Origin: Betaproteobacteria bacterium
GTDB taxonomy: Bacteria; Pseudomonadota; Gammaproteobacteria; Burkholderiales; Sulfuricellaceae
NCBI GenBank assembly: GCA_021373185.1
Contig: JAJFTF010000024.1
Location: forward strand, 248,001 to 312,000
Direction of reading: 5' to 3'
DNA: 64,000 nucleotides
How positions within the stretch are numbered: the first letter of the stretch is position 1; each line of letters opens with the position of its first letter. Below the pieces are notes generated by a model. That model was not told where the DNA came from and searched no databases. It was given only the letters and a program-made list of their open reading frames with translations. This document shows, in pieces, positions 13,744 to 58,605 of this stretch. Both the position numbers and the translations under genes were made by a program.

Positions 13744-14004
13744 ATGAACCACAATTGCGCCAACATCATCTCCCCCGACATGCGCTATCCATTCGACGCC
13801 CGTGGCGTCGCCAAGCGCTTCCGCCATGCCGCCATCTTCGGCGCACTGGATTCCCTGCATCCCGGCGAAACCATGCGCTTCGTCAACGATCACGATCCGC
13901 TGCCGCTGCTCGCGCAACTGATGGAGCGCTACGGCGACAGCATCGAAATCAATTATGTCGCCCGAGAGCCAGGCAGCATCGTCATCGACTTCACGCGCAA
14001 ATAA
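13744..14004 (+). CDS. DUF2249 protein
   Basis: 86-residue cytoplasmic protein with a single DUF2249 domain (FDARGVAKRFRHAAIFGALDSL near the N-terminus, then a PGETMRFVNDHDP loop). Such domains adopt a small SirA/TusA-like alpha/beta fold and recur beside nitric-oxide and denitrification genes; the biochemical role is not established. A good ribosome site (AAGGAAG) precedes the ATG. The 16-base gap to the next membrane protein suggests co-transcription. A second DUF2249 gene lies at 18734-18991 beside another membrane protein of the same kind, so the pair is duplicated in the region. Confidence 0.85.
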   Translation: MNHNCANIISPDMRYPFDARGVAKRFRHAAIFGALDSLHPGETMRFVNDHDPLPLLAQLMERYGDSIEINYVAREPGSIVIDFTRK

Positions 14005-14019
14005 CCCGATAAAAAATCC

Positions 14020-15147
14020 ATGTTGGTCGCCCTGGTGCTGATGGCAGCAGCGAGCTTTGCCGCCGCTGCCATCCTACCCTGGGCATTGCCGCTACTCCCA
14101 TCCGCCCATATCCACCTCGCCTTGGCGGTGGGTGTCATGCCCCTGATCTTCGGCGCAATGGTTCATTTCGTGCCGGTGCTGACGCGCAGCACCTCGCCCC
14201 ATACCGGTATAAAAATTATTCCCCTGATGGCATCAGTCGCAGGCGTGCTGGCTGTTCTTTCTTTCGCGGCAGCAAACCAGCTCTACTATTTCGCCGCGCT
14301 ACTCGCCCTGACCATAGCCGCCACATTTTTCGGCTGGATCATCCCGCGCGCATCGACGCCCTTGACCAAACCGCACCCCTGCCTGCACTGGTATCTCGCC
14401 GCGATTTTCTGCCTGATGCTGGCGCTGACGGCGGTAGCAGCAATGTTCATCTGGCCGGAACAACGCCCGGCGCTGAAGCGCCTGCACCTGCATCTCAATA
14501 CACTGGGATTCATCGGCCTGACCGCCATCGCCACTCTTCAGGTGCTGCTGCCCACTGTGGTCGGACGCCCCGACCCGCTGGCCGCACCCAGATTGCGCCA
14601 GAGTTTGAAATGGGCTCTGGGCGGCACGCTGCTGACCGCTATCGGCGCCGCTTGGTTCCATCCGCTATCCTGGCTGGGTGCGCTGTTATGGATGATTCCC
14701 CTGCTCCGTTTGGGCAAGACATGGCTCACCCTCTACCCTGCTGAAATTCGCCGATTAAGCGGTGCCGCTCCCTCGCTCGCCGCAGCGCTGGCAGGGTTCG
14801 CTGCCGCCCTGATTTTCGGTGCACTGCACGCAACTGGCATCCTGAAAACGACCGATACCGCCCATGCATTCATCCTCGCCTTTCTATTTCCGCTGGTAAC
14901 TGGCGCAGCCAGCCAGTTGCTGCCGGTATGGGCGCGACCCGGCCCGCAGACGGCCTGGCACACCCAAGTGCGGCAGCGACTGGGATTTGCCGGCGGCCTG
15001 CGCGGCACATTGTTCGTCGGCGGCGGCTTGCTGCTCGGGGTTGGTTGGCGCGGAGGATGGGTGTTGGCAATGGCGGCGCTCGCCACATTTCTTCTGCAAC
15101 TGACATACACGGCAATCACAATGCTTAACCGCGATAGCGCGGATTAA
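14020..15147 (+). CDS. Polytopic membrane protein resembling haem-copper oxidase subunit I / NnrS
   Basis: 375 residues, about 10-12 predicted membrane helices. A helix containing LHLNTLGFIGLTAIATLQVL carries His in a setting like haem-ligating helices of NorB-like and NnrS-like proteins. The start MLVALVLMAA directly enters a membrane span. The protein at 17418-18737 has a matching helix (THLMTLGFLSMVMVGAMLQM) and is also next to a DUF2249 gene, so the two are probably distant relatives. A role in nitric-oxide stress or metal/haem handling is inferred from location near nor genes; no catalytic centre can be assigned. Confidence 0.6.
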   Translation: MLVALVLMAAASFAAAAILPWALPLLPSAHIHLALAVGVMPLIFGAMVHFVPVLTRSTSPHTGIKIIPLMASVAGVLAVLSFAAANQLYYFAALLALTIAATFFGWIIPRASTPLTKPHPCLHWYLAAIFCLMLALTAVAAMFIWPEQRPALKRLHLHLNTLGFIGLTAIATLQVLLPTVVGRPDPLAAPRLRQSLKWALGGTLLTAIGAAWFHPLSWLGALLWMIPLLRLGKTWLTLYPAEIRRLSGAAPSLAAALAGFAAALIFGALHATGILKTTDTAHAFILAFLFPLVTGAASQLLPVWARPGPQTAWHTQVRQRLGFAGGLRGTLFVGGGLLLGVGWRGGWVLAMAALATFLLQLTYTAITMLNRDSAD

Positions 15148-15239
15148 GGTAAAATTGCAAGCAAATAATTTATTAAGCCGAACCAAATCGCTGCCCCGCT
15201 TTCCAACCGCAGACTGGTTTCATTAAGGAAGTTTTGACG

Positions 15240-16406
15240 ATGTTGCACACTGATTTTCCCTTGCTCAAGATCAAAGGCAAGGAAGCACTTCCTATCGTGC
15301 AGGGCGGCATGGGCGTTGGCGTTTCGGCGCACCGTCTGGCTGGCGCCGTGGCCAGGGAAGGCGCGGTGGGCACCATCGCCAGCATCGACCTGCGCCGCCA
15401 CCACCCCGACCTGATGGAGCAGTCGACCACGCCAAAAACCAGAGAAGCCATGGATCGCGCCAACCTGACGGCACTCGACCGCGAAATCAAGAGCGCGAAG
15501 GAAATCGCCCAGGGCAACGGCATGATTGCGGTCAACGTCATGAAAGCCGTGACTGAGCACCCCCAACTGGTGCGCCAAGCCTGCGAGAGCGGCGCAGACG
15601 CCATTGTGATGGGCGCCGGATTGCCGTTCGACCTGCCGGAGATGGCGGCAGGCTACCCCAATGTCGCCCTGATCCCGATTCTCTCCGACGTGCGCGGCAT
15701 CAACGTAGTGCTGAAAAAATGGATGCGCAAGCAGAAACTGCCCGACGCTATCGTCATCGAACACCCGCGCTATGCCGGCGGCCACCTCGGCGCGCCCAAA
15801 CCGGAAGATCTGACCGACCCACGCTTCGATTTCCCCGGTGTGCTGGAAGGGGTATTCAAATTGTTCAAGGATTTCGGCATCGAGCGCGAACGTATTCCGC
15901 TGATTCCCGCCGGCGGCATCAACACCTTTGAAAAGGTGCGCGACCTGCTGGCGCTTGGCGCCAGCGCAGTGCAAATCGGCACGCCATTCGCAGTGAGCGA
16001 GGAAAGCGACGCGCACCCCAATTTCAAAAAAGTGCTGGCCGAAGCCAAACCCGAGGACATCGTCACCTTCATGAGCGCCGCCGGCCTGCCCGCGCGCGCG
16101 GTATTGACACCATGGCTGAAGAATTATTTACGCCGTGAAATCAAGCTGATGTCTTTTGCCGACCCGGTACGCTCGAAATGCGCCGCCGTGCTCGACTGCC
16201 TGTCGGAATGCGGCTTGCGTGACGGCGTCGCCAAAGCCGGTCAGTTCTGCATCGACTCGCAGCTTGCCGCTGCATTGCGCGGCGACGTCAACAAGGGGCT
16301 GTTCTTCCGTGGTTCGGAAAGCCTGCCGTTCGGCACGGCCATCCGCCCGGTGCGGGAAATTATTGAATACTTCCTGACCGGCAGGAAGCCGGTGTTTTCC
16401 GCCTGA
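15240..16406 (+). CDS. Nitronate monooxygenase-family flavoprotein
   Basis: 388-residue FMN-dependent TIM-barrel protein of the nitronate monooxygenase/2-nitropropane dioxygenase superfamily. The N-terminal PIVQGGMGVGVS is the flavin-site signature, IVMGAGLPFDLP follows, and the phosphate-binding region IPAGGINTFEKV...GASAVQIGTPFA lies near residues 220-250. An unusual GGHLGAPKPEDL segment and a C-terminal extension with several Cys occur. Family members oxidise alkyl nitronates or act as enoyl reductases; the substrate here is unknown. ATG at 15240 follows a strong AAGGAAG ribosome site. Downstream is a large hairpin. Confidence 0.8.
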   Translation: MLHTDFPLLKIKGKEALPIVQGGMGVGVSAHRLAGAVAREGAVGTIASIDLRRHHPDLMEQSTTPKTREAMDRANLTALDREIKSAKEIAQGNGMIAVNVMKAVTEHPQLVRQACESGADAIVMGAGLPFDLPEMAAGYPNVALIPILSDVRGINVVLKKWMRKQKLPDAIVIEHPRYAGGHLGAPKPEDLTDPRFDFPGVLEGVFKLFKDFGIERERIPLIPAGGINTFEKVRDLLALGASAVQIGTPFAVSEESDAHPNFKKVLAEAKPEDIVTFMSAAGLPARAVLTPWLKNYLRREIKLMSFADPVRSKCAAVLDCLSECGLRDGVAKAGQFCIDSQLAAALRGDVNKGLFFRGSESLPFGTAIRPVREIIEYFLTGRKPVFSA

Positions 16407-16431
16407 TCCAGAATCATTCCGCAGTAAAAAA

Positions 16432-16483
16432 CACAGGGGGCGCGAAGGAATCAACTTTGTTGAAAACCTTCGCGCCCCCTGTG
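16432..16483 (+). terminator. Long perfect hairpin between convergent genes
   Basis: A 17-bp perfect stem (16432-16448 with 16467-16483) with an 18-base loop that itself contains a small inverted repeat (CAAC/GTTG). It sits between the convergent ends of the nitronate monooxygenase-like and TauD-like genes. It probably acts as a bidirectional terminator, although there is no T-run. Its GCGCGAAGG core resembles the arms of the intergenic repeat family seen elsewhere in the window. Confidence 0.55.
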
Positions 16484-16505
16484 CGCTTCGCAGCCCATCC
16501 CCTAT

Positions 16506-17408
16506 CTACAAGTCATATACCTCGCCCACCGAAGTACCCGCAATCCGATCGTAATAACGGGCACGATACAGCAAGCGATGATGCGCCTCATCATTGGCGA
16601 AACCAGCGCGGTCGTGCAGCACGTTATTGCCGATCAGCCCCATCCCCGGTTCCAGCCGGGCACGGTAAATATAGGGCAAATCGCTGTCGAGCAGCTTTTC
16701 CAGGAATGCCACCGCAGCCAGCGTAATTGCATCCCGCTTCCAGATGATGCTGCGGGTGCGAGCCGTGTAGCGCATGTGCAGGTCGCCGCTTTTCGGATGA
16801 ACCGAGAACACCGGGCCAGCTTCATCCGGTCGCGCCACGCCATCTTCTTCGACCCGTGCCGGGATGGTCATGGCATCGGGTTGCATCAGCGCGCGAATGA
16901 AGTCGGGGTTCTCGTCGCGCATCAGCAAATAGGCGATCTCGTGATCCATCAGGGCATTTTCGCCGCCGCTCGCAGCGCTCTGCACGCAATGCAGTTGCAA
17001 ACCCCATATTTGCCGGTGCGACGGGTTGTAATAACCATCGGTATGCCATTTGATCGGTCGGTCGGTATAGGGGATAAACCCTTGGCGCGGCGAATCCGCC
17101 ACCACCTTGAGCGAGGTCAGGCCATCTTCATCCGCCAGCACATTGTGATCGAGGCGTTCCAGACCAAGACGCTTTCCCAGCAGGCGTGGAATATCCTTGT
17201 CCGGGTCGGCGCCAGTCTTGCCCGCATACACGACCATGTTGGTCTTGCGGCAACAATCCAGAATAGCCTGGTATTCAACCGCAGACAGATTGCGCGGATC
17301 GTTGACTTCGACGATCAACTGCGCCACGCGGGTCGGATAATTCTTCAGTTTCTGGTCGCGCCATGCCTGGTAGGCTGACTCGTTTTCAAGTAAGAAAGGA
17401 CTATTCAC
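16506..17408 (-). CDS. TauD/TfdA-family Fe(II)/2-oxoglutarate-dependent dioxygenase
   Basis: 300 residues. The iron-binding triad is visible: H122-T-D124 in KWHTDGYYN and H265 in NNVLHDRAGF. A downstream Arg-rich strand (HHRLLYRARYY) could bind 2-oxoglutarate. Family members hydroxylate taurine, other sulfonates or diverse small molecules; the substrate cannot be read from sequence. It is transcribed towards the nitronate monooxygenase-like gene and lies 9 bases downstream of the membrane-protein gene at 17418, so it is likely in the same minus-strand transcript as that gene, DUF2249 and hemerythrin. It needs oxygen, which is odd among anaerobic genes. Confidence 0.8.
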   Translation of the reverse strand: MNSPFLLENESAYQAWRDQKLKNYPTRVAQLIVEVNDPRNLSAVEYQAILDCCRKTNMVVYAGKTGADPDKDIPRLLGKRLGLERLDHNVLADEDGLTSLKVVADSPRQGFIPYTDRPIKWHTDGYYNPSHRQIWGLQLHCVQSAASGGENALMDHEIAYLLMRDENPDFIRALMQPDAMTIPARVEEDGVARPDEAGPVFSVHPKSGDLHMRYTARTRSIIWKRDAITLAAVAFLEKLLDSDLPYIYRARLEPGMGLIGNNVLHDRAGFANDEAHHRLLYRARYYDRIAGTSVGEVYDL

Positions 17409-17417
17409 GAGTGTTCC

Positions 17418-18737
17418 TCAAATTGTTTGCAGATCGTTCTTTGGCGCAAGTTTAGCGTGTTTCCGGTAGACCCGGAATGCGGACAGCAGGTTGAATTCAA
17501 GCAGCACCATGGATACGCCGAACAGCACTGCCGCCGGGTAAATCAGCAGCGGCCACAGCGCGGACAAGCCCAACAAGGGCACCGCCAGAAAATGCAGCCA
17601 CATCTGCCGGCGCATTCCCGCTTCCGGCATGATCTGCCTCATGTTCGGCACTTTCGCCACTCCCATCAACAGACTTTGCAGGTGAAACCAGATCAGGAAC
17701 GGCACGATTTTGTACAGCATGCCATTGACCACCGACACGGCAAAACCCGCGACAAACAGGAATATCGGCATAAAATTTTCGCCGTGCGCATTGTCCGAAA
17801 TTTTCATAGCCTGCCCGACGATACTCAAGGCCAAGGCCAGCAGCAGGCAAACCATGCCAAAACGCCAGAACAGCAAGGTCACATCCGATTGCTTGCGCCG
17901 CCGTTGCGACTGCAGGCGCAGGGTCGCCAGCGCAAACAGCGCAAGGACAGCCACCGTAATCAGAGCCACCACGATGGCAACCTGCTCCTGCATGCCAGAA
18001 TCCGCTAACAGCCATGGAATCGACCCCAGCAGCAACAGCACAAACAGCGCTCGCGGCAACCAGCGCATCAGCAATTTGGGATAAGCCGGAGTCAACTGGA
18101 ACATCGGCACCACCTGATAAGACACGCTGATCACCAACAGCCCGACCCAACCCAGTAATCCCCAGGTTAAATGAAGATTGGTCACCTGTATCCAGCTAAT
18201 CAACCACCATTTCCAGCCGAAATTGCTGGCCAGAACCAAGCCAAGGATGGCGGTCACCGTCAGCGAAACAAGCGCAAACCGCATCCCGACCACGGTCGGA
18301 TTGCCGGATGCCGCCCGCGCCAGGCTGAAGCCCACTGCAATGACAAACACCAGCAGACCGCCGCCGAGCAATACCATGGCCAGCAGCATCAGCCAAGGCG
18401 ACGCCAGCAAGAAACCAGCAGCCAAAAATAAAACGCCGGAAACCAGCAGCAGGTGCACTGCGCGCGCCACACCGACCGGATGTGCGACCGGCGAACCGGC
18501 GATCACCGGCAGCATCTGCAACATGGCGCCGACCATCACCATGCTGAGAAAGCCCAGCGTCATCAGGTGCGTCAACGCCAGCACCGATGGCTGCCAGCGG
18601 CTTTCCAGCAAAGAAGGGCCGAACCACAGGGCGAGCAATGCGACCAGCAAAGCAAACAGGGGGGCGCTCAGGAAGAACCGGAACGGCACCATGATCGGTG
18701 GTGCCTGGGCAAACGACAGGCCCGGCGGCAGGCTCAT
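17418..18737 (-). CDS. Polytopic membrane protein resembling haem-copper oxidase subunit I
   Basis: 439 residues with about 12 predicted membrane helices and short polar loops. Conserved His residues lie in helices (ALTHLMTLGFLSMVMVGAML near residue 58; NLHLTWGLLGWVGLL near residue 205; LIWFHLQSLL near residue 345), a pattern like NorB-like or NnrS-like haem proteins, but the full set of NorB haem/FeB ligands is not apparent. It overlaps the DUF2249 gene (stop/start overlap near 18734-18737), indicating coupled translation. Related in layout to the protein at 14020-15147. A role linked to NO is inferred from neighbours only. Confidence 0.6.
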   Translation of the reverse strand: MSLPPGLSFAQAPPIMVPFRFFLSAPLFALLVALLALWFGPSLLESRWQPSVLALTHLMTLGFLSMVMVGAMLQMLPVIAGSPVAHPVGVARAVHLLLVSGVLFLAAGFLLASPWLMLLAMVLLGGGLLVFVIAVGFSLARAASGNPTVVGMRFALVSLTVTAILGLVLASNFGWKWWLISWIQVTNLHLTWGLLGWVGLLVISVSYQVVPMFQLTPAYPKLLMRWLPRALFVLLLLGSIPWLLADSGMQEQVAIVVALITVAVLALFALATLRLQSQRRRKQSDVTLLFWRFGMVCLLLALALSIVGQAMKISDNAHGENFMPIFLFVAGFAVSVVNGMLYKIVPFLIWFHLQSLLMGVAKVPNMRQIMPEAGMRRQMWLHFLAVPLLGLSALWPLLIYPAAVLFGVSMVLLEFNLLSAFRVYRKHAKLAPKNDLQTI

Positions 18738-18991
18738 TGGCTCAAGCCATACGGCGCAGCCTCGGCATCGCCAGTGCGCCAGATCAGAATCTCATGATGA
18801 TCTTCGGCCTTGGCCTCGGCCAAGTGCTGAAAGCCGCGTTTTGCCAGCAGCGGATACAACAAGCACGGCTCGCGATGATGGATCATGCGCAAACGCTCGC
18901 CCGGCTGCAAGACTGCAACGGCATCCAGGGTCTTTTCCAACGGCTCGGGAGGTTCCAACCCGCGTACATCCAATATGCGTTCGCTACCCAT
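18734..18991 (-). CDS. DUF2249 protein, second copy
   Basis: 85 residues. It carries the DUF2249 pattern: ILDVRGLEPPEPLEKTLDAV near the N-terminus, LQPGERLRMIHHREPCLLYPLL, and a C-terminal ILIWR strand. Start ATG at 18991. Its stop overlaps the following membrane-protein start, and the hemerythrin gene ends 12 bases upstream, so hemerythrin, DUF2249, the membrane protein and the TauD-like gene probably form one transcript divergent from norCB. Its exact role is unknown. Confidence 0.82.
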   Translation of the reverse strand: MGSERILDVRGLEPPEPLEKTLDAVAVLQPGERLRMIHHREPCLLYPLLAKRGFQHLAEAKAEDHHEILIWRTGDAEAAPYGLSQ

Positions 18992-19002
18992 GCGGCTATC
19001 CG

Positions 19003-19443
19003 TTACGCACCGACCGCGCGCATTTTCTGCAGCGTCTCTGCCGTTTCGCCGGCCAAAGCCTGGTCGGCCATATGGTAGAGCATCTGCTCTTCCTTCATAT
19101 TGTGCTGCTGCATCATCACCAGCAGCGTTTCCGCCTGGCCGAGGAACTCATCCCGGTCTTGCTGCTTCACCGCATCCGCCATGGCATCGAACAGCTCGCG
19201 CATCTGCACGTGCTCCATCCGCATCACCTGGGTCGGCCCCATGGTCATGCCGGTGCGCTGCTCGAATGCGGGAAACAGCACTTCTTCTTCCATTTTGAAA
19301 TGATGATGCATGGAATCGAGAAAAGCGTGCAGGTCGGTGGCGATAGCTGCCCAATCCTGGCCGGAAGCGGCGGCTTCCGCTTGCGCGAATAGCTCGTCGC
19401 AGCGATGGTGATCGCCGCTCATATAACTGCTGATGGTTTCCAT
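19003..19443 (-). CDS. Hemerythrin-like HHE-domain protein
   Basis: 146-residue four-helix di-iron protein. Metal-ligand His/Glu residues recur in GDHHRCDELF, DSMHHHFKMEEEVLFP, MRMEHVQMREL and MMQQHNMKEEQMLYH, which matches the hemerythrin/HHE pattern. Such proteins bind O2 or NO or repair damaged iron centres (compare YtfE/DnrN), and a role in NO protection fits its place divergent from norCB with an FNR/Dnr-type box between. The ATG at 19443 has AGGA 7 bases upstream; a longer in-frame reading starting at 19650 runs back over the regulatory box and was not used. Confidence 0.85.
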   Translation of the reverse strand: METISSYMSGDHHRCDELFAQAEAAASGQDWAAIATDLHAFLDSMHHHFKMEEEVLFPAFEQRTGMTMGPTQVMRMEHVQMRELFDAMADAVKQQDRDEFLGQAETLLVMMQQHNMKEEQMLYHMADQALAGETAETLQKMRAVGA

Positions 19444-19876: not shown

Positions 19877-20302
19877 ATGAGCCAAACATTTACCAAGTCA
19901 ATGGCGAGAAACATTTTTTTCGGGGGGTCAGCATTTTTCTTCCTGCTCCTCGTCGCTCTGACTTTTGACACCATGCAAGTCCTGCCGAAGCGGGATCACC
20001 GTGAGAACATCACCCCCGCAGTCGAACGCGGCAAAATGGTCTGGGAAAAGAACGACTGTATCGGTTGCCACACCCTGTTGGGTGAGGGCGCCTACTTCGC
20101 CCCCGAACTCGGCAACGTCTACAAGCGTCGCGGCGGTGAATTCGTCAAATCATGGATCAAGTCCATGCCTACCAAGGTTCCAGGCCGTCGCCAAATGCCG
20201 CAATTCAACCTGACCGACCAGGAGTTGGACGATATGGTGGCATTCCTGAAATGGACTGGCGAAATCAATACTTCAAAATGGCCGCCGAACATTGAAGGTT
20301 AA
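19877..20302 (+). CDS. norC: Nitric oxide reductase cytochrome c subunit NorC
   Basis: 141 residues. An uncleaved N-terminal membrane anchor (about residues 12-30) is followed by a periplasmic monohaem domain with CIGCH at residues 61-65 and a likely Met axial ligand in GRRQMPQF near residue 110. It passes electrons from periplasmic donors to NorB for 2 NO + 2 e- + 2 H+ to N2O + H2O. A strong AGGAGG precedes the ATG. norB begins 42 bases downstream with its own AGGAGG. This is the cNOR type, not the quinol-dependent qNOR. Confidence 0.96.
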   Translation: MSQTFTKSMARNIFFGGSAFFFLLLVALTFDTMQVLPKRDHRENITPAVERGKMVWEKNDCIGCHTLLGEGAYFAPELGNVYKRRGGEFVKSWIKSMPTKVPGRRQMPQFNLTDQELDDMVAFLKWTGEINTSKWPPNIEG

Positions 20303-20317
20303 TTTCAGCCACCCTGA

Positions 20318-21721
<1,404 letters not shown>

Positions 21722-21756: not shown

Positions 21757-21849
21757 AGCGCCATATACCCGACTGTTTTCATATACTATTAACCTCGGGC
21801 GACAAACGCTAGAATGAGGCGTGTTGCACCACACCGATTAGACCGAACC

Positions 21850-22440
21850 ATGCCCACACCAAGCATTACCCTACACAACCACAAGCCGGGTGCACCACCG
21901 GGCGATCTGGTAATTTGGCTTTTTATTTTTGCCGAGCTGCTGGCCTTCGGCATATTTTTCGGCGCCTATGCCTTTTCCCGATCCCACCACGTCGAACTGT
22001 ACAACCAGTCGCAACTTTTGCTTAACCGCGAATCCGGTGCGATCAACGCCCTGGTGCTGATTACCAGCAGCTACTTCGTGGTGCGCGCCGTCGCGGCGAT
22101 CAAACAGGGATTCTCGCGCGAATGCGCCAACTGGATAGCCGGCGCCATCGGCCTCGGCGGCGTATTCATCGTGATCAAGCTGCTCGAGTTCAACGCCAAG
22201 TTTTCTGCGGGAATTTCACTCAGCACCAATACTTTCTACATGTTCTACCTGTCGCTCACCGTTTTCCATTTCATGCACGTCATCCTCGGCATGGTGATCC
22301 TGACTGCGGTGATGCTTAAAGCAAGGCGCGGCGGCTACACGCCGGAGGATCATACCGGCGTTGAAACCGGCGCCTCCTACTGGCACATGGTAGATCTGGT
22401 CTGGATCATTCTTTTTCCACTGGTTTATGTCATCAGATAG
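21850..22440 (+). CDS. norE: NorE-like cytochrome c oxidase subunit III-family protein
   Basis: 196 residues with five membrane helices. It shows the CoxIII-like signature GDLVIWLFIFAELLAFGIFF, a FMHVILGMVILT helix, and the end GASYWHMVDLVWIILFPLVY. NorE-like proteins accompany nor genes and are needed for full NOR activity in some denitrifiers but are not catalytic. ATG at 21850 was chosen; an in-frame ATG at 21814 would add 12 residues and cannot be excluded, since neither has a good ribosome site. The next gene starts 7 bases after the stop. Confidence 0.85.
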   Translation: MPTPSITLHNHKPGAPPGDLVIWLFIFAELLAFGIFFGAYAFSRSHHVELYNQSQLLLNRESGAINALVLITSSYFVVRAVAAIKQGFSRECANWIAGAIGLGGVFIVIKLLEFNAKFSAGISLSTNTFYMFYLSLTVFHFMHVILGMVILTAVMLKARRGGYTPEDHTGVETGASYWHMVDLVWIILFPLVYVIR

Positions 22441-22447
22441 GACTCAC

Positions 22448-22729
22448 ATGAATCACCCACCCCAACCCCATTTCGTCCGTCCCTGCACCCGCATCTGGCT
22501 AGTGCTGGTAGTGCTGACCGCAGTTACCTACTCCATCGGCGAAGCCGGTTTAGGCGGCAAGAATGTCATGCTGTTCGTGCTGGCCATTACACTGATCAAA
22601 AGCCAGATGATCGCCAGCTACTTCATGGGCCTGCGCAAGACCAGCCCGATGTGGCGGATCATCATGGGTTCCTGGCTGGTAATCGTGGGAGGCATGATTG
22701 CATCCGCCTACCTGATGGGACTCCAATAA
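22448..22729 (+). CDS. norF: NorF-like small membrane protein (cytochrome oxidase subunit IV-like)
   Basis: 93 residues, three predicted membrane helices (about 18-35, 40-60, 70-90). It contains LIKSQMIASYFMGLRK, a pattern shared by NorF and prokaryotic cytochrome oxidase subunit IV proteins. It follows the NorE-like gene closely, with AGGA before the ATG at 22448. It is probably an accessory subunit for maturation or stability of NorCB. The name is based on family resemblance and order. Confidence 0.75.
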   Translation: MNHPPQPHFVRPCTRIWLVLVVLTAVTYSIGEAGLGGKNVMLFVLAITLIKSQMIASYFMGLRKTSPMWRIIMGSWLVIVGGMIASAYLMGLQ

Positions 22730-29787: not shown

Positions 29788-31014
29788 CTATCCCGGCTGC
29801 CCATCCGACCGTGGCCGCCAGAACTTCGGCGCATATTTGACGAACCAGGGCACATAACACGCCAGCCAGATCGCCGCCGCCAGCAGGTAGAAATGCCCCG
29901 CCACGCCGCCGGCCAGCGGCAAATCGCCGCCGATACGCGCCAGCGTGGCGAACTGGAACCCCAGGAACAACCCCCAGGTAACGCCATCCGCCTTGAGCTC
30001 GCCGCCGGAGTGGCCGAGCGTAACGCGCGAGGCCATGCCCAGCACCATCGAGGCGAACAGGCCAACCGTCAAGGCGTGAAGCGGTGCAAAACCGAGAATC
30101 GGGTGATCCATCAGCAGCGCCAGGCTCTGCACCGCATACAGCGCCAGTGCAACGGAAAGCCAGGCGAAGGCGATTTGCAGCACCGCCAGCAAGCGCACTT
30201 CAAGGCTGCGGCGCAACTGCCAGTGCCAGCTCAGGTAGAGCGTCTGCGCCAGCAGGGGCAGGTCGAACAGCCACAGCCAGATGTTGCCGCCAAATATCTC
30301 CAGCACGCCATGTCCGCAACTGCACACCAGCATCACCCACAAGGCATTCTGCGGACGGACAATGCGGTAGTTGTCCAACACCCGGCTGGAGAAAAACGGG
30401 ATCATGCGATGGGCGACGGTAAAGAAAATCGGCAGCAGGAAAAACCAGATCCCGGCCTTGAAAGCGAACACCACGAACAGCGCATTGCCGGTGATCAGCC
30501 ACCACAGGTAAGCCAGCATGCCGAGCCAGCCCGCCGTCAGGGCGGCGCTGGTGATTTTCGGGTGCAGCTTGTCGGGGTGGCGCGAGGTGATCAGCACGTG
30601 GAACAAGGCGTAAAGTGCGATGCCCCAACCGCCCAGCATCAGTGCGACTCCGGCGATCAGCAGCGGCTTGCCCGCCAGCAGGCCGAGGTAATACAGCAGC
30701 ACGCCAGCCGCCGACAGCAAGAAGGCTGGCACATAATGGCGCGGCGGCACTTTTTCGCCGTTCATCCAACTAGGGTAAGTGGTCATCAGGAAGCCGAAGA
30801 TGAAGAACGGGAAGAAGCCGTAAATCATCAGGAATCCGTGCGCCCAGGTCGCGGGAACTTCCCAGGCAGGGAGCTGCCACACAGAGGTGTAGCGGCCCAG
30901 CAATTCGACCAGCCACCAGGCGATCACAGCCACGCCCTGCGTGGCGCCGGCGAGGAACATCATGCGGTGCGGCGCGGCGGAGAATGCGCGCCAGGTAGCG
31001 GAAAATTGGGGCAT
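29788..31014 (-). CDS. nnrS: NnrS family haem-copper membrane protein
   Basis: 408 residues with about 12 membrane helices. Family signatures are WAHGFLMIYGFFPFFIFGFL near the N-terminus, VFAFKAGIWFFLLPIFFTVAHRMIPFF in the middle and LHALTVGLFASMVLGMASRVTLGHSG near the end. NnrS proteins contain haem and copper and lessen nitrosative stress; they are expressed with nir/nor regulons. It is divergent from the first kinase gene with a 176-base gap that shows no FNR-type palindrome. Confidence 0.92.
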   Translation of the reverse strand: MPQFSATWRAFSAAPHRMMFLAGATQGVAVIAWWLVELLGRYTSVWQLPAWEVPATWAHGFLMIYGFFPFFIFGFLMTTYPSWMNGEKVPPRHYVPAFLLSAAGVLLYYLGLLAGKPLLIAGVALMLGGWGIALYALFHVLITSRHPDKLHPKITSAALTAGWLGMLAYLWWLITGNALFVVFAFKAGIWFFLLPIFFTVAHRMIPFFSSRVLDNYRIVRPQNALWVMLVCSCGHGVLEIFGGNIWLWLFDLPLLAQTLYLSWHWQLRRSLEVRLLAVLQIAFAWLSVALALYAVQSLALLMDHPILGFAPLHALTVGLFASMVLGMASRVTLGHSGGELKADGVTWGLFLGFQFATLARIGGDLPLAGGVAGHFYLLAAAIWLACYVPWFVKYAPKFWRPRSDGQPG

Positions 31015-47070: not shown

Positions 47071-48654
47071 TTAGTGGCTGGTGCCAGCCGAGTGCGTGAT
47101 CTTGTTGTAAACGTTGTATTTGCCGGACGGCTTGTTCATCGGCAGGCGCTTGATCTCCTCAAGCGTTGCCGCATCATAGACGATCAGTGCGCCGTCATTT
47201 TCCCAGATGCTCACCAGCACATATTTTCCGTCGCGCGTAAATTCGACATGCGCCGCTGTTTTGCCCGGCATCGGTCGCAGTATTTTCACGATTTCAAGCG
47301 TGCGCTTGTCGATCAGGGTCATCGCATCGCGGCTCGCCTGGCTGTTGCTGGAAAAACCGTCAGTCCACGCATAAGGGGTGTTCTCGTGGCTGCGCATGAA
47401 AAAGCCCGGGCCGATGGTTTCTATCTGTTTTATCGTCTGCCAGGTCGTCATGTCGATCACGCTCACCAGCGCCTCCTTCAGGTTGGGCGTGGCCATCACC
47501 GGGCGGCCCTGATACTCCCAGGTAATGCCTGAACCCAGATGAGGCATTCCCGGCAAGTCGATTTCCGCCACCTTCCTGCCGCTATCGAGGTCGATCACCT
47601 GCCCCTTCTTGCCATCACGGGCGGCGCCGATCAGATGGCGGTAGGACTGGTCGAAGAAGAAATCATCGAGATAATTGTCCACCGCAATGCGGCGCACCAG
47701 GAAATCTTTCGTCGCATAAGGGATCTCCCATACTTCTTTCGCATCCTTCAAGGCGGCCACAAAGCTGCCGCGCGGCTCGGCCTGGTAGACGGCAGACACC
47801 CGCGAGCTGGTTCCATCCTGACCTGCCGTCGGGATCACCTTGATCAGCGAAAGATCCAGCGCATCCAGCAACACCAGGGAATGGGGCAGGTAATTGCCCA
47901 CCAGCACCGTCTTGCCGTCGCCCGACACGGCCAGGTTCCGGGTGTTGATGCCGGCACGCACCTCGGCCACCACCTTCAGGTTGTAAATATCAAACTTGCT
48001 GACCCAGCCATCGCGCGAGGCAAAATACACGAAGCGCCCATCCGGGCTGAACTTCGGCCCGCCGTGCAAAGCATAGCGGGTAGGGAAGCGATAAACCGGC
48101 TCGAACTTGTCGCCGTCCAGAATGGTCGCATGGTGGTCGCCCAACTCAACCACCACAAAGAGGTTCAGCGGGTCGGCGGTGAACACCGGCTTGTCCGGCA
48201 GGCTGCCGGTCGGCACATGCTGCAGGTGGGAAGTAATGATTTCGTTCGCGCCCCATACCGGCATGGTGGGTAGCGGCTTGTAAATCAGATCCGCCAGGGC
48301 CTGAATCTCCTCCTTGCCAAGCTTGGCGGAGAAACCCGCCATCTGGGTGGCGGTGCGTCCATCGGCGATGGTTTTGACCGCCTCCGGGCGGCGCAAGCGC
48401 GCCAGGTTCTCCGGCAGCAGGGCCGGGCCGCTGCCGCCCAGCCGCTCGGCACCATGGCAGGAAGCGCAATGCTCGGCGTAGAGCTTCTGCACGTCGGGCG
48501 CAGCCTGGACAGCCGCCGAAAGCAATGCCGACAACAAAACAAAACCCTTAACCGCGAAGGACGCGAAGGAACGCGAAGGAACCACAGTGAAATCACTAAA
48601 GAATCGGGTTGTTTTCCTTTGCGTACCTTCGCGGTAAAAATAAATCTTATCCAT
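47071..48654 (-). CDS. nirN: NirN, cytochrome c / d1-type haem d1 biosynthesis enzyme
   Basis: 527 residues if started at ATG 48654. A haem c domain with C63-A-S-C66-H67 is followed by an eight-bladed D1-type propeller. Motifs such as GGPKFSPDGRFVYFASRDGW and GMPHLGSGITWEY and a final KPSGKYNVYNK are found. NirN binds dihydro-haem d1 and completes haem d1 (family knowledge). The start is uncertain: the first 37 or so residues are translated from an inverted-repeat element (48549-48640), and the natural signal peptide GFVLLSALLSAAVQA begins after it. ATG 48654 overlaps the nirJ stop by 8 bases. Confidence 0.87.
   Translation of the reverse strand: MDKIYFYREGTQRKTTRFFSDFTVVPSRSFASFAVKGFVLLSALLSAAVQAAPDVQKLYAEHCASCHGAERLGGSGPALLPENLARLRRPEAVKTIADGRTATQMAGFSAKLGKEEIQALADLIYKPLPTMPVWGANEIITSHLQHVPTGSLPDKPVFTADPLNLFVVVELGDHHATILDGDKFEPVYRFPTRYALHGGPKFSPDGRFVYFASRDGWVSKFDIYNLKVVAEVRAGINTRNLAVSGDGKTVLVGNYLPHSLVLLDALDLSLIKVIPTAGQDGTSSRVSAVYQAEPRGSFVAALKDAKEVWEIPYATKDFLVRRIAVDNYLDDFFFDQSYRHLIGAARDGKKGQVIDLDSGRKVAEIDLPGMPHLGSGITWEYQGRPVMATPNLKEALVSVIDMTTWQTIKQIETIGPGFFMRSHENTPYAWTDGFSSNSQASRDAMTLIDKRTLEIVKILRPMPGKTAAHVEFTRDGKYVLVSIWENDGALIVYDAATLEEIKRLPMNKPSGKYNVYNKITHSAGTSH
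48549..48640. repeat. Inverted repeat with GCGAAGGA-type units at the nirN 5' end
   Basis: Left arm 48549-48584 (ACCGCGAAGGACGCGAAGGAACGCGAAGG order) and right arm 48612-48638 (CTTTGCGTACCTTCGCGGTA). It lies between the nirJ stop and the nirN signal peptide and is open in the nirN frame. It belongs to the same family as 23937-24030 and 63939-64000. Confidence 0.8.
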
Positions 48655-51979: not shown

Positions 51980-53158
51980 TCACAAACCGGTGCGATGAGC
52001 ACGCGGGGTAAAAAATATTCCGCTGGGTTTGTCGGCATGCAATTCGCTGATCTTCTCGAAGGTTTCGGCATCGTAAATTTCAACCCGGTCATCGTCGCGC
52101 ACCGACACCCATACCTGCTCCCCGCGCGGAGTGAATTCCATGTGCAGCACAGCCTTGCCGGGCTTGAGCGTTTTCACGATGGCGCGGCTCGCAATGTCGA
52201 TGATCTGTACCGTGTCGTTATCCGGGAACGCAAAATTCACCCAGACCTGACGGTTATCGGGGCGCGCCACCACGAAAACTGGCTGTCCATGAACCGGGAT
52301 GCGACCGGCCTCCGACCATTTATTCTGGTCGATCACCAGAACTTCATGTCGCCCTACTGCCGGCACCAGCAACTCGTTACCGGTCGTCGCCCAGCCTTCG
52401 AGATGCGGCATCTTGTAAACCGGCAGCTTTTGCTCGCCCTTGCCATAGCCGTTCAACACTCGTTTCACGCCGGCAGGCATGTTCCATAAATCGAGCAGCG
52501 CCAAGCCGTCTTCGCCGAACAGTCCGGCCAGGTAGTAGCGCCCATCGGCGGTAATCATGGCGTCGTAAGGCTCCTTGCCGACACTCTTGAATTTCGTCAC
52601 CACCGGCCTGGCGGGAACGCGCATGTCGGCTATCCAGATTTCCCCGGCTTCGAACAGGCTGAACACGAAGCGGTTGCCGGGCGCATCCACCAGCCCGATT
52701 ACCTTGGATGACTTGCCGGCATCGTCGATGGCGGGAATATCGGCAACCAGCTCAAGCGTTCCGGAGTCGAACACCTTCACCCCGCCCGGCGTGTAGTTAG
52801 CCACCGCGATCAATTTTCCATCCTGGGAAATCGCGCCACCGATGCTGTTGCCCGATTGCATCACGCGCCTGACGATGCGCATTTCGAGCATGTCCACCTT
52901 GGTCAAGCCGCCATCCCGGCCAAACACATAGGCGTAGCGCTCATCGCGCGAATAATTGACCGACGCGTGGGACAAATCGCCCAGACCAGGAATCTGCCCG
53001 AGCCGGGTGCGATGCGTGGTTTCCACGATCTGGACGCTGCCCGCAGCGCGCTCGATGATCACGCCCATGTCGCCGGTACCGCGCAACGGCGTCGAAGCGC
53101 AACCTGACAACAACAGAGGAAAGAAGAGAAAAAAAGCGGGGATTAATTTACGGCGCAT
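51980..53158 (-). CDS. nirF: NirF haem d1 biosynthesis lipoprotein
   Basis: 392 residues. The signal peptide ends in a lipobox (LLLSGC, Cys about residue 20), so the protein is exported and lipid-anchored. The rest is a D1-like beta-propeller without a haem c motif (for example GLGDLSHASVNYSRDERYAYV, YKMPHLEGWATTG, GKAVLHMEFTPRGEQVW). NirF acts in a late step before NirN. The nirDL start lies 90 bases downstream. Confidence 0.92.
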   Translation of the reverse strand: MRRKLIPAFFLFFPLLLSGCASTPLRGTGDMGVIIERAAGSVQIVETTHRTRLGQIPGLGDLSHASVNYSRDERYAYVFGRDGGLTKVDMLEMRIVRRVMQSGNSIGGAISQDGKLIAVANYTPGGVKVFDSGTLELVADIPAIDDAGKSSKVIGLVDAPGNRFVFSLFEAGEIWIADMRVPARPVVTKFKSVGKEPYDAMITADGRYYLAGLFGEDGLALLDLWNMPAGVKRVLNGYGKGEQKLPVYKMPHLEGWATTGNELLVPAVGRHEVLVIDQNKWSEAGRIPVHGQPVFVVARPDNRQVWVNFAFPDNDTVQIIDIASRAIVKTLKPGKAVLHMEFTPRGEQVWVSVRDDDRVEIYDAETFEKISELHADKPSGIFFTPRAHRTGL

Positions 53159-56823: not shown

Positions 56824-58503
<1,680 letters not shown>

Positions 58504-58591: not shown

Positions 58592-58605
58592 TTGATACAA
58601 ATCAA
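58592..58605. promoter_or_regulatory. FNR/Dnr-type site upstream of nirS
   Basis: TTGATACAAATCAA, a perfect TTGAT-N4-ATCAA palindrome, centred 114 bases before the nirS ATG. A class II promoter start would lie near 58557. It is the strongest of the three boxes seen. The 215-base nirS/menD gap contains nothing else convincing. Confidence 0.85.

Follow-up and report, generated by a model that had tools for sequence, protein, structure and literature searches.

We describe two gene modules in a 64,000-nucleotide stretch (hereafter the window) of contig JAJFTF010000024.1 (positions 248,001 to 312,000), from a betaproteobacterium of the Sulfuricellaceae. Each module joins a small DUF2249 protein to a membrane protein. 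DUF2249a lies 15 nucleotides upstream of MemA on the same strand; in the other module a hemerythrin gene is followed after 11 nucleotides by DUF2249b, whose stop codon overlaps the start of MemB by 4 nucleotides. Gene content and coordinates (Table 1) agree with the initial annotation, made from the sequence alone, including its placing of the hemerythrin module divergent from norCB. A PF10006 search of the assembly gave DUF2249a and DUF2249b and no third DUF2249 gene.

The combination of hemerythrin, DUF2249 and MemB recurs widely. A profile scan of genome contigs with the MemB alignment gave at least 447 confirmed relatives, the best 80 of which were kept (the 80 loci below). A hemerythrin gene lies upstream on the strand of MemB in 79 of these and a DUF2249 gene in 69 (a count obtained from all open reading frames (ORFs) with both models; selected ORFs and a single model gave 55), ten loci having hemerythrin without DUF2249 and one neither partner. 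A class survey of 229 genomes, the host of the window included, found MemB in 29 (threshold E 1e-5) and DUF2249 in 40, 35 of them above the family cut-off; taking the 50 of 56 DUF2249 rows above that cut-off, DUF2249 lies no more than 400 nucleotides upstream of MemB in 27 of the 29 MemB genomes. When 27 wide regions from this survey were read with our own models, both partners were present in 23, hemerythrin only in one, DUF2249 only in one and neither in two. The neighbourhood survey thus finds recurrent pairing in other genomes, for which the initial annotation had proposed such a survey as a check, and the suggestion made there that the pairing marks a functional unit is strongly supported for hemerythrin–DUF2249–MemB, but for DUF2249a–MemA it does not extend beyond one clade.

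At the level of the phylum, MemB was found in 57 of 299 genomes (E 1e-10), and the loci of 20 of these 57 were examined, with partners called by hand reading. In seven of the 20, a single protein of 222–255 amino acids, encoded divergently from MemB, carries DUF2249 at its N-terminus and hemerythrin at its C-terminus; its DUF2249 part scores above the family cut-off in four cases (35.9, 36.9, 32.5 and 45.7) and below it in three (18.1, 24.5 and 28.6). Because they are fused in such distant MemB loci, the two soluble partners probably work together. Among the other 13 loci, two have separate hemerythrin and DUF2249 genes, one has hemerythrin only and four DUF2249 only. Three of these last four (L194, L196 and L197) place a MemB relative beside a tandem two-DUF2249 protein, and no hemerythrin was recognised there; the second DUF2249 domain is TusA-like in L194 and L196.

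Neither MemA nor MemB matches a Pfam or NCBIfam family at E<1, the COX1 (PF00115) and NnrS (PF05940) profiles included, and for MemB, DUF2249a and DUF2249b no solved relative was found by sequence. Profile comparisons of MemB with NorB (E 0.006, probability 6%) and of MemA with NnrS (E 0.058, below significance) are likewise unconvincing. The predicted structures are more informative. AlphaFold2 models of MemB (64-sequence alignment; predicted local distance difference test (pLDDT) 93.8, predicted TM-score (pTM) 0.93) and MemA (11-sequence alignment; pLDDT 89.7, pTM 0.89) each show 12 main helices, in keeping with the 10–12 spans originally proposed, and thereby the helix number of a haem-copper oxidase or nitric oxide (NO) reductase subunit. 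Their top solved match in Foldseek is CcoN of cbb3 oxidase (E 3.9e-8 for MemB, 7.7e-4 for MemA), with NO reductase and other oxidases ranked lower. With VIA-align 2, MemB superposes on CcoN 9g6b_A over 400 residues (Z 34.4, 3.3 Å) and MemA over 361 residues (Z 31.5, 3.1 Å), so that the description of both proteins as haem-copper-oxidase-like is borne out by predicted fold (Z 31–34).

Both proteins also contain the pattern H-x-x-T-L-G-F ... L-x-x-L-P singled out in the initial annotation, starting at H57 in MemB and at H158 in MemA. Three MemB alignments of 23, 64 and 47 sequences were compared, all of which include the window, and the last of which repeats the class-survey relatives of the first and adds 19 phylum-level loci. 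H57 in transmembrane helix 2 (TM2) and H189 in TM6 are invariant throughout (23 of 23, 64 of 64 and 47 of 47), as is Q74, while K343 and H352 in TM10 are each kept in 42 of 47 sequences. In all 11 sequences of the MemA alignment (A3), H32 (TM2), H119, H156 and H158 (TM6) and H314 are invariant, and the family alignments of both proteins therefore do hold conserved histidines.

The catalytic subunits of oxidases and NO reductases bind their metals through histidines in TM2, TM6, TM7 (two) and TM10 (two). NorB of the window has the TM7 and TM10 pairs (H251/H252 and H340/H342), whereas neither the TM7 His-His nor the TM10 His-x-His is among the conserved positions of the MemB (A2) or MemA (A3) alignment, both proteins retaining the TM2 and TM6 positions of the set. 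NnrS, which we take to be a relative of the oxidase fold, has H49, H303 and H325 invariant in an alignment of 14 sequences (A5). It has a conserved histidine in its first repeat, and its profile matches that of MemB in register (E 1.8e-4, probability 49%), but the second NnrS histidine (H303) lies in the third repeat and that of MemB (H189) in the second; neither MemA nor MemB matches PF05940 at E<1, and the window encodes a separate, true NnrS. From pseudo-threefold symmetry and known structures, the TM2/TM6 pair of MemB would line the third pseudo-symmetric pore of the fold, between these two helices, a pore that is not known to be occupied in oxidases and NO reductases.

The soluble partners are readily assigned to families. 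The hemerythrin lies well above the cut-off of Hemerythrin HHE (PF01814; 25.3 bits), and its di-iron ligands H12, H48, E52, H78, H114 and E118 are each kept in 79 or 80 of 80 sequences, that of the window included. Its nearest solved relative is YtfE (E 8e-7), with which, and with NorA and RIC, it shares the HHE di-iron ligands; however, it has a single HHE domain, its gene is coupled to DUF2249 and MemB, and it falls far below the NCBIfam equivalog cut-offs for RIC (TIGR03652, 23.7 against 204.7) and YtfE (34 against 254). A cysteine near the first conserved histidine, C15, is kept in 78 of 80 sequences and is a possible redox or NO-reactive thiol. Both DUF2249 proteins exceed the PF10006 cut-off of 29.5 bits. 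The NDHDPLPLL motif of DUF2249a is kept in the 10 other aligned DUF2249a sequences, and DUF2249b, which also matches TusA, has a proline at what we take to be the TusA cysteine position.

Upstream of the hemerythrin operon we searched for an FNR/DNR-type box, defined as TTGAT-N4-ATCAA with at most one mismatch within 350 nucleotides of the hemerythrin domain. Three of the 80 loci were excluded for want of an anchor or because the upstream region was short, and the box was present in 46 of the remaining 77, against 63 of 734 control upstream regions from the same loci, 36 of 305 intergenic controls (genes with an upstream gap of at least 100 nucleotides; p 3e-17) and 15 of 1540 single-base shuffles, hemerythrin regions being measured from the start of the domain and control regions from the longest-ORF start. 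A perfect box occurs in 15 of 77 loci, compared with 19 of 734 upstream and 11 of 305 intergenic controls. All seven fusion loci have a box with 0–1 mismatch in promoter stretches that were picked by hand and partly overlap longest-ORF starts; three further loci gave a box in L187 (one mismatch) and L188 (none) and no box in L186. In the window the box TTGACCCAAATCAA lies between hemerythrin and norC, and may serve either or both.

The genomes in which MemB occurs point in a similar direction. In the class survey, NorB is present in 19 of 29 MemB genomes against 36 of 200 without MemB (p 3.5e-7), and cytochrome d1 in 18 of 29 against 31 of 200 (p 3.1e-7), both p-values being too small since the genomes are related; one or other marker is found in 23 of 29 against 51 of 200. 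A relative of NnrS lies in nine of the 80 loci. When neighbouring genes were clustered and each cluster named from one representative, a Crp/Fnr cluster appeared in 22 of the 80 loci and a second such cluster in five, followed by cytochrome d1 (10), HemN (9), NrdD (8), universal stress protein (8), UbiV (6), UbiU (5), PhaC (5) and NnrS (4). The setting of MemB is thus largely one of anaerobic metabolism and denitrification, and is not restricted to NO reductase. The handling of NO or nitrite, put forward in the initial annotation, is consistent with the boxes and with the co-occurrence of NorB and cytochrome d1, but fits less well the MemB genomes that have neither marker.

The two modules were initially described as duplicated, which is too strong, as the likeness of MemA to MemB and of DUF2249a to DUF2249b is at the edge of detection. 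DUF2249a and DUF2249b agree at 14 of 45 aligned positions (E 8e-5); MemA and MemB are matched by BLASTP over 27 residues (E 0.001) and by hhalign at E 0.003 (probability 10%), the hhalign match pairing repeat 1 of one protein with repeat 2 of the other. Comparison repeat by repeat gave its best match between MemB repeat 1 and MemA repeat 2 (E 1.2e-5), the remaining pairs being weak, which supports the correspondence of MemB H57 to MemA H158, as judged from sequence profiles, but not a full symmetric alignment. Since similarity between the modules is barely detectable, we reject a recent duplication as their origin and regard them as two distinct modules of one general type.

DUF2249a–MemA is the second and more narrowly spread of these. 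A DUF2249a gene stands beside MemA in 10 of the 11 MemA-containing loci of the MemB set, but DUF2249 adjoins none of the four other MemA homologues of the class survey (one on a 4.2-kb contig), which weakens the case for a general unit. Nor is the FNR/DNR-type box a feature of this module: in the window none was found even at three mismatches, and among the 11 loci a box with at most one mismatch lies upstream in two, both with MemA divergent from norC. In two loci (L065 8459-9583 and L067 8445-9569), proteins of 374 amino acids with eight transmembrane helices and no Pfam match lie directly 3' of a DUF2249 gene. They show 20–23% identity to MemA (alignment A4) but do not have H32 and H158, and were set aside; they may represent a third type of membrane protein linked to DUF2249.

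The HCOH proteins of Pei et al. (2014) are reportedly oxidase-fold homologues with two conserved histidines and a link to denitrification, a description that MemB fits in all three respects. Part of this background is in print: Rodionov 2005 predicted COG4309/DUF2249 to bear on NO reductase and placed it in NnrR- and NsrR-regulated gene groups (PMC1274295), a paper in which NnrS also figures as a membrane protein of nitrogen-oxide regulons, and in PMC11218638 the work of Pei et al. 2014 is cited as connecting DUF2249 with the haem-copper oxidase superfamily. Both kinds of connection, with NO reductase and with homologues of oxidases, had therefore been published before, and the earlier statement that the pairing has no assigned role holds only in that no role was found in the literature searched. 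We did not find in that literature, outside which Pei et al. 2014 itself lies, the combination of hemerythrin, DUF2249 and MemB together with the fusion, the box and the TM2/TM6 histidine pair.

The reading that we tentatively favour, and would place just short of probable, is that hemerythrin–DUF2249b–MemB is an anaerobically induced, FNR/DNR-controlled module that protects iron enzymes from NO and related stress. Recurrence of the unit, the fusion, the predicted 12-helix fold, the conservation of ligands and the box are computed observations; haem binding, NO handling, electron transfer and the target of the module are what we infer beyond them. A regulator of the FNR/DNR type would induce the operon under anaerobic conditions. 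MemB, given its invariant TM2/TM6 histidine pair, would be a membrane partner with one haem held between these helices, and DUF2249 would dock the cytosolic di-iron hemerythrin onto it. The complex might then capture NO, or NO-damaged iron, at the di-iron site, with electrons exchanged between this site and the haem of MemB. We count as a precedent the di-iron hemerythrin NorA, which protects Ralstonia from NO (PMC9045102).

Several observations weigh against this reading. The 80 loci are the closest relatives of MemB and share ancestry, so that counts and p-values drawn from them do not come from independent cases; DUF2249 was not found in 11 of them, and NorB is seen in only 11. Adjacent DUF2249 is missing in two of the 29 MemB genomes of the class survey, four of the 27 wide regions miss one or both partners, and neither partner was recognised beside MemB in six of the 20 phylum loci, where MemB either can occur without partners or has unrecognised ones. 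At up to one mismatch, 31 of the 77 loci have no box, and FNR boxes also mark general anaerobic genes. At the thresholds used, six of the 29 MemB genomes have neither NorB nor cytochrome d1; because of this, and of the scarcity of NorB in the loci, the target need not be the NO of denitrification. Finally, according to a review, the NO reductase activity of YtfE, a related di-iron protein, is negligible (PMC9268430), which speaks against a hemerythrin that reduces NO.

Other explanations account for some of these features. DUF2249 and hemerythrin might sense NO, oxygen, nitrate or nitrite, with MemB as anchor or transducer, much as has been proposed for DrpA and DrpB of Thermus, which like DUF2249b are DUF2249 proteins of a nitrogen-oxide regulon (PMC6282519). 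Expression of nar and dnr becomes nitrate-independent when both Drp proteins are missing (PMC6282519), Haloferax mediterranei induces DUF2249 genes when it denitrifies (PMC11218638), and Crp/Fnr clusters neighbour MemB. However, hemerythrin, DUF2249b and MemB contain no Pfam output domain, a 12-helix oxidase fold with conserved histidines seems large for a mere anchor, and DrpB combines DUF1858 with two DUF2249 domains, the excerpts of PMC6282519 reporting no oxidase-fold, MemB-type partner for it; we regard a sensor as rather unlikely. The FNR-type box, the neighbouring NrdD, HemN, UbiV and UbiU clusters and the MemB genomes in which both NorB and cytochrome d1 are missing would suit a module in which the di-iron protein scavenges oxygen with electrons from MemB, shielding oxygen-sensitive enzymes such as NrdD and HemN, but MemB co-occurs with NorB and cytochrome d1, and in the window and some relatives the module lies near norCB (11 of 80 loci) or nnrS (nine), so that protection against oxygen or redox stress seems to us unlikely. 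A role in maturation of NO or nitrite reductase, the hemerythrin carrying iron and MemB handling haem, would agree with the adjacency to norCB in the window and some relatives, with the non-haem iron of cNOR and with the importance for NO reductase function that Rodionov 2005 suggested for COG4309 (PMC1274295). It is nonetheless improbable, given that 10 of the 29 MemB genomes have no NorB match, that NorB is not seen in 69 of the 80 loci (some of them short), and that iron insertion is already served by NorQ and NorD (PMC9976466).

Two further possibilities turn on MemB as part of an enzyme. That MemA and MemB are themselves oxidases or NO reductases is suggested by their match to the catalytic subunits of cbb3 oxidase and cNOR over the full length of the fold (about 400 residues for MemB against CcoN and NorB). 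Unlike those subunits, though, they do not conserve the TM7 His-His and TM10 His-x-His, nor do they match the COX1 family, and we reject this explanation on the missing ligands as extremely unlikely. A bolder reading is a split NO reductase, in which MemB, a non-catalytic oxidase fold with its sole haem in the TM2/TM6 pore, would pass membrane electrons on to a cytosolic DUF2249–hemerythrin partner docked on it, whose di-iron site would reduce NO; such an arrangement appears to us improbable.

The unit provides DUF2249, a domain tied to denitrification in bacteria and archaea, with a defined set of partners, one a di-iron protein and the other a membrane protein of the oxidase fold, and with a likely type of regulator, so that its function is open to test by deletion of one operon. 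The module is also carried by other denitrifying and low-oxygen bacteria; isolates with a MemB relative in the contig scan include Noviherbaspirillum autotrophicum TSA66 and Sedimenticola selenatireducens BK-1. As the MemB of the window matches no model of Pfam or NCBIfam at E<1, such proteins may well go without a name in routine annotation. If a haem does lie between TM2 and TM6, this would be a novel use of the haem-copper oxidase fold.

Table 1 Genes and sites of the two DUF2249 modules and their surroundings in the window
Feature	Position	Strand	Basis and remarks
DUF2249a, 86 amino acids	13744..14004	+	Pfam PF10006, 95.4 bits; upstream of MemA; NDHDPLPLL motif
MemA, 375 amino acids	14020..15147	+	12 predicted main helices; predicted haem-copper-oxidase fold
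MemB, 439 amino acids	17418..18737	-	12 predicted main helices; predicted haem-copper-oxidase fold
DUF2249b, 85 amino acids, TusA-like	18734..18991	-	Pfam PF10006, 62.1 bits; TusA, 37.2 bits
Hemerythrin (HHE) protein, 146 amino acids	19003..19443	-	Pfam PF01814, 78.6 bits; first gene of the operon
FNR/DNR-type box TTGACCCAAATCAA	19642..19655		1 mismatch to TTGAT-N4-ATCAA; divergent hemerythrin/norC promoter region
norC	19877-20302	+	Pfam Cytochrom_C; transcribed away from hemerythrin–DUF2249b–MemB
norB	20345-21721	+	Pfam COX1; NorB alignment; transcribed away from hemerythrin–DUF2249b–MemB
COX3-like and caa3 subunit IV-like genes	21814-22729	+	directly 3' of norCB
Nitronate monooxygenase-family gene	15234-16406	+	between the MemA and MemB modules
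TauD-family Fe/2-oxoglutarate dioxygenase	16506..17408	-	Pfam TauD, 78.6 bits
NnrS gene	29809-30984	-	PF05940, 233 bits; outside both modules

Among the neighbouring genes, that of the TauD-family dioxygenase starts 9 nucleotides after MemB on the same strand and probably belongs to the operon as its fourth gene in this lineage, but is not conserved in general. A TauD match was obtained in three of the 80 MemB loci. A match also adjoins hemerythrin in L045 and L046 and comes after MemB in L080 and L093. As an oxygen-using enzyme, it is an odd member of an anaerobic operon. Matches to the nitronate monooxygenase model occur in 14 of the 80 loci. The COX3-like and caa3 subunit IV-like genes that follow norCB we take to be, probably, norE and norF. 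Elsewhere in the window there are three genes with cytochrome d1 domains, all on the minus strand (47101-48174, 52004-53080 and 56842-58023), and a perfect FNR/DNR box, TTGATACAAATCAA, at 58592, about 100 nucleotides upstream of the ORF of the third of these domains (56824-58491).

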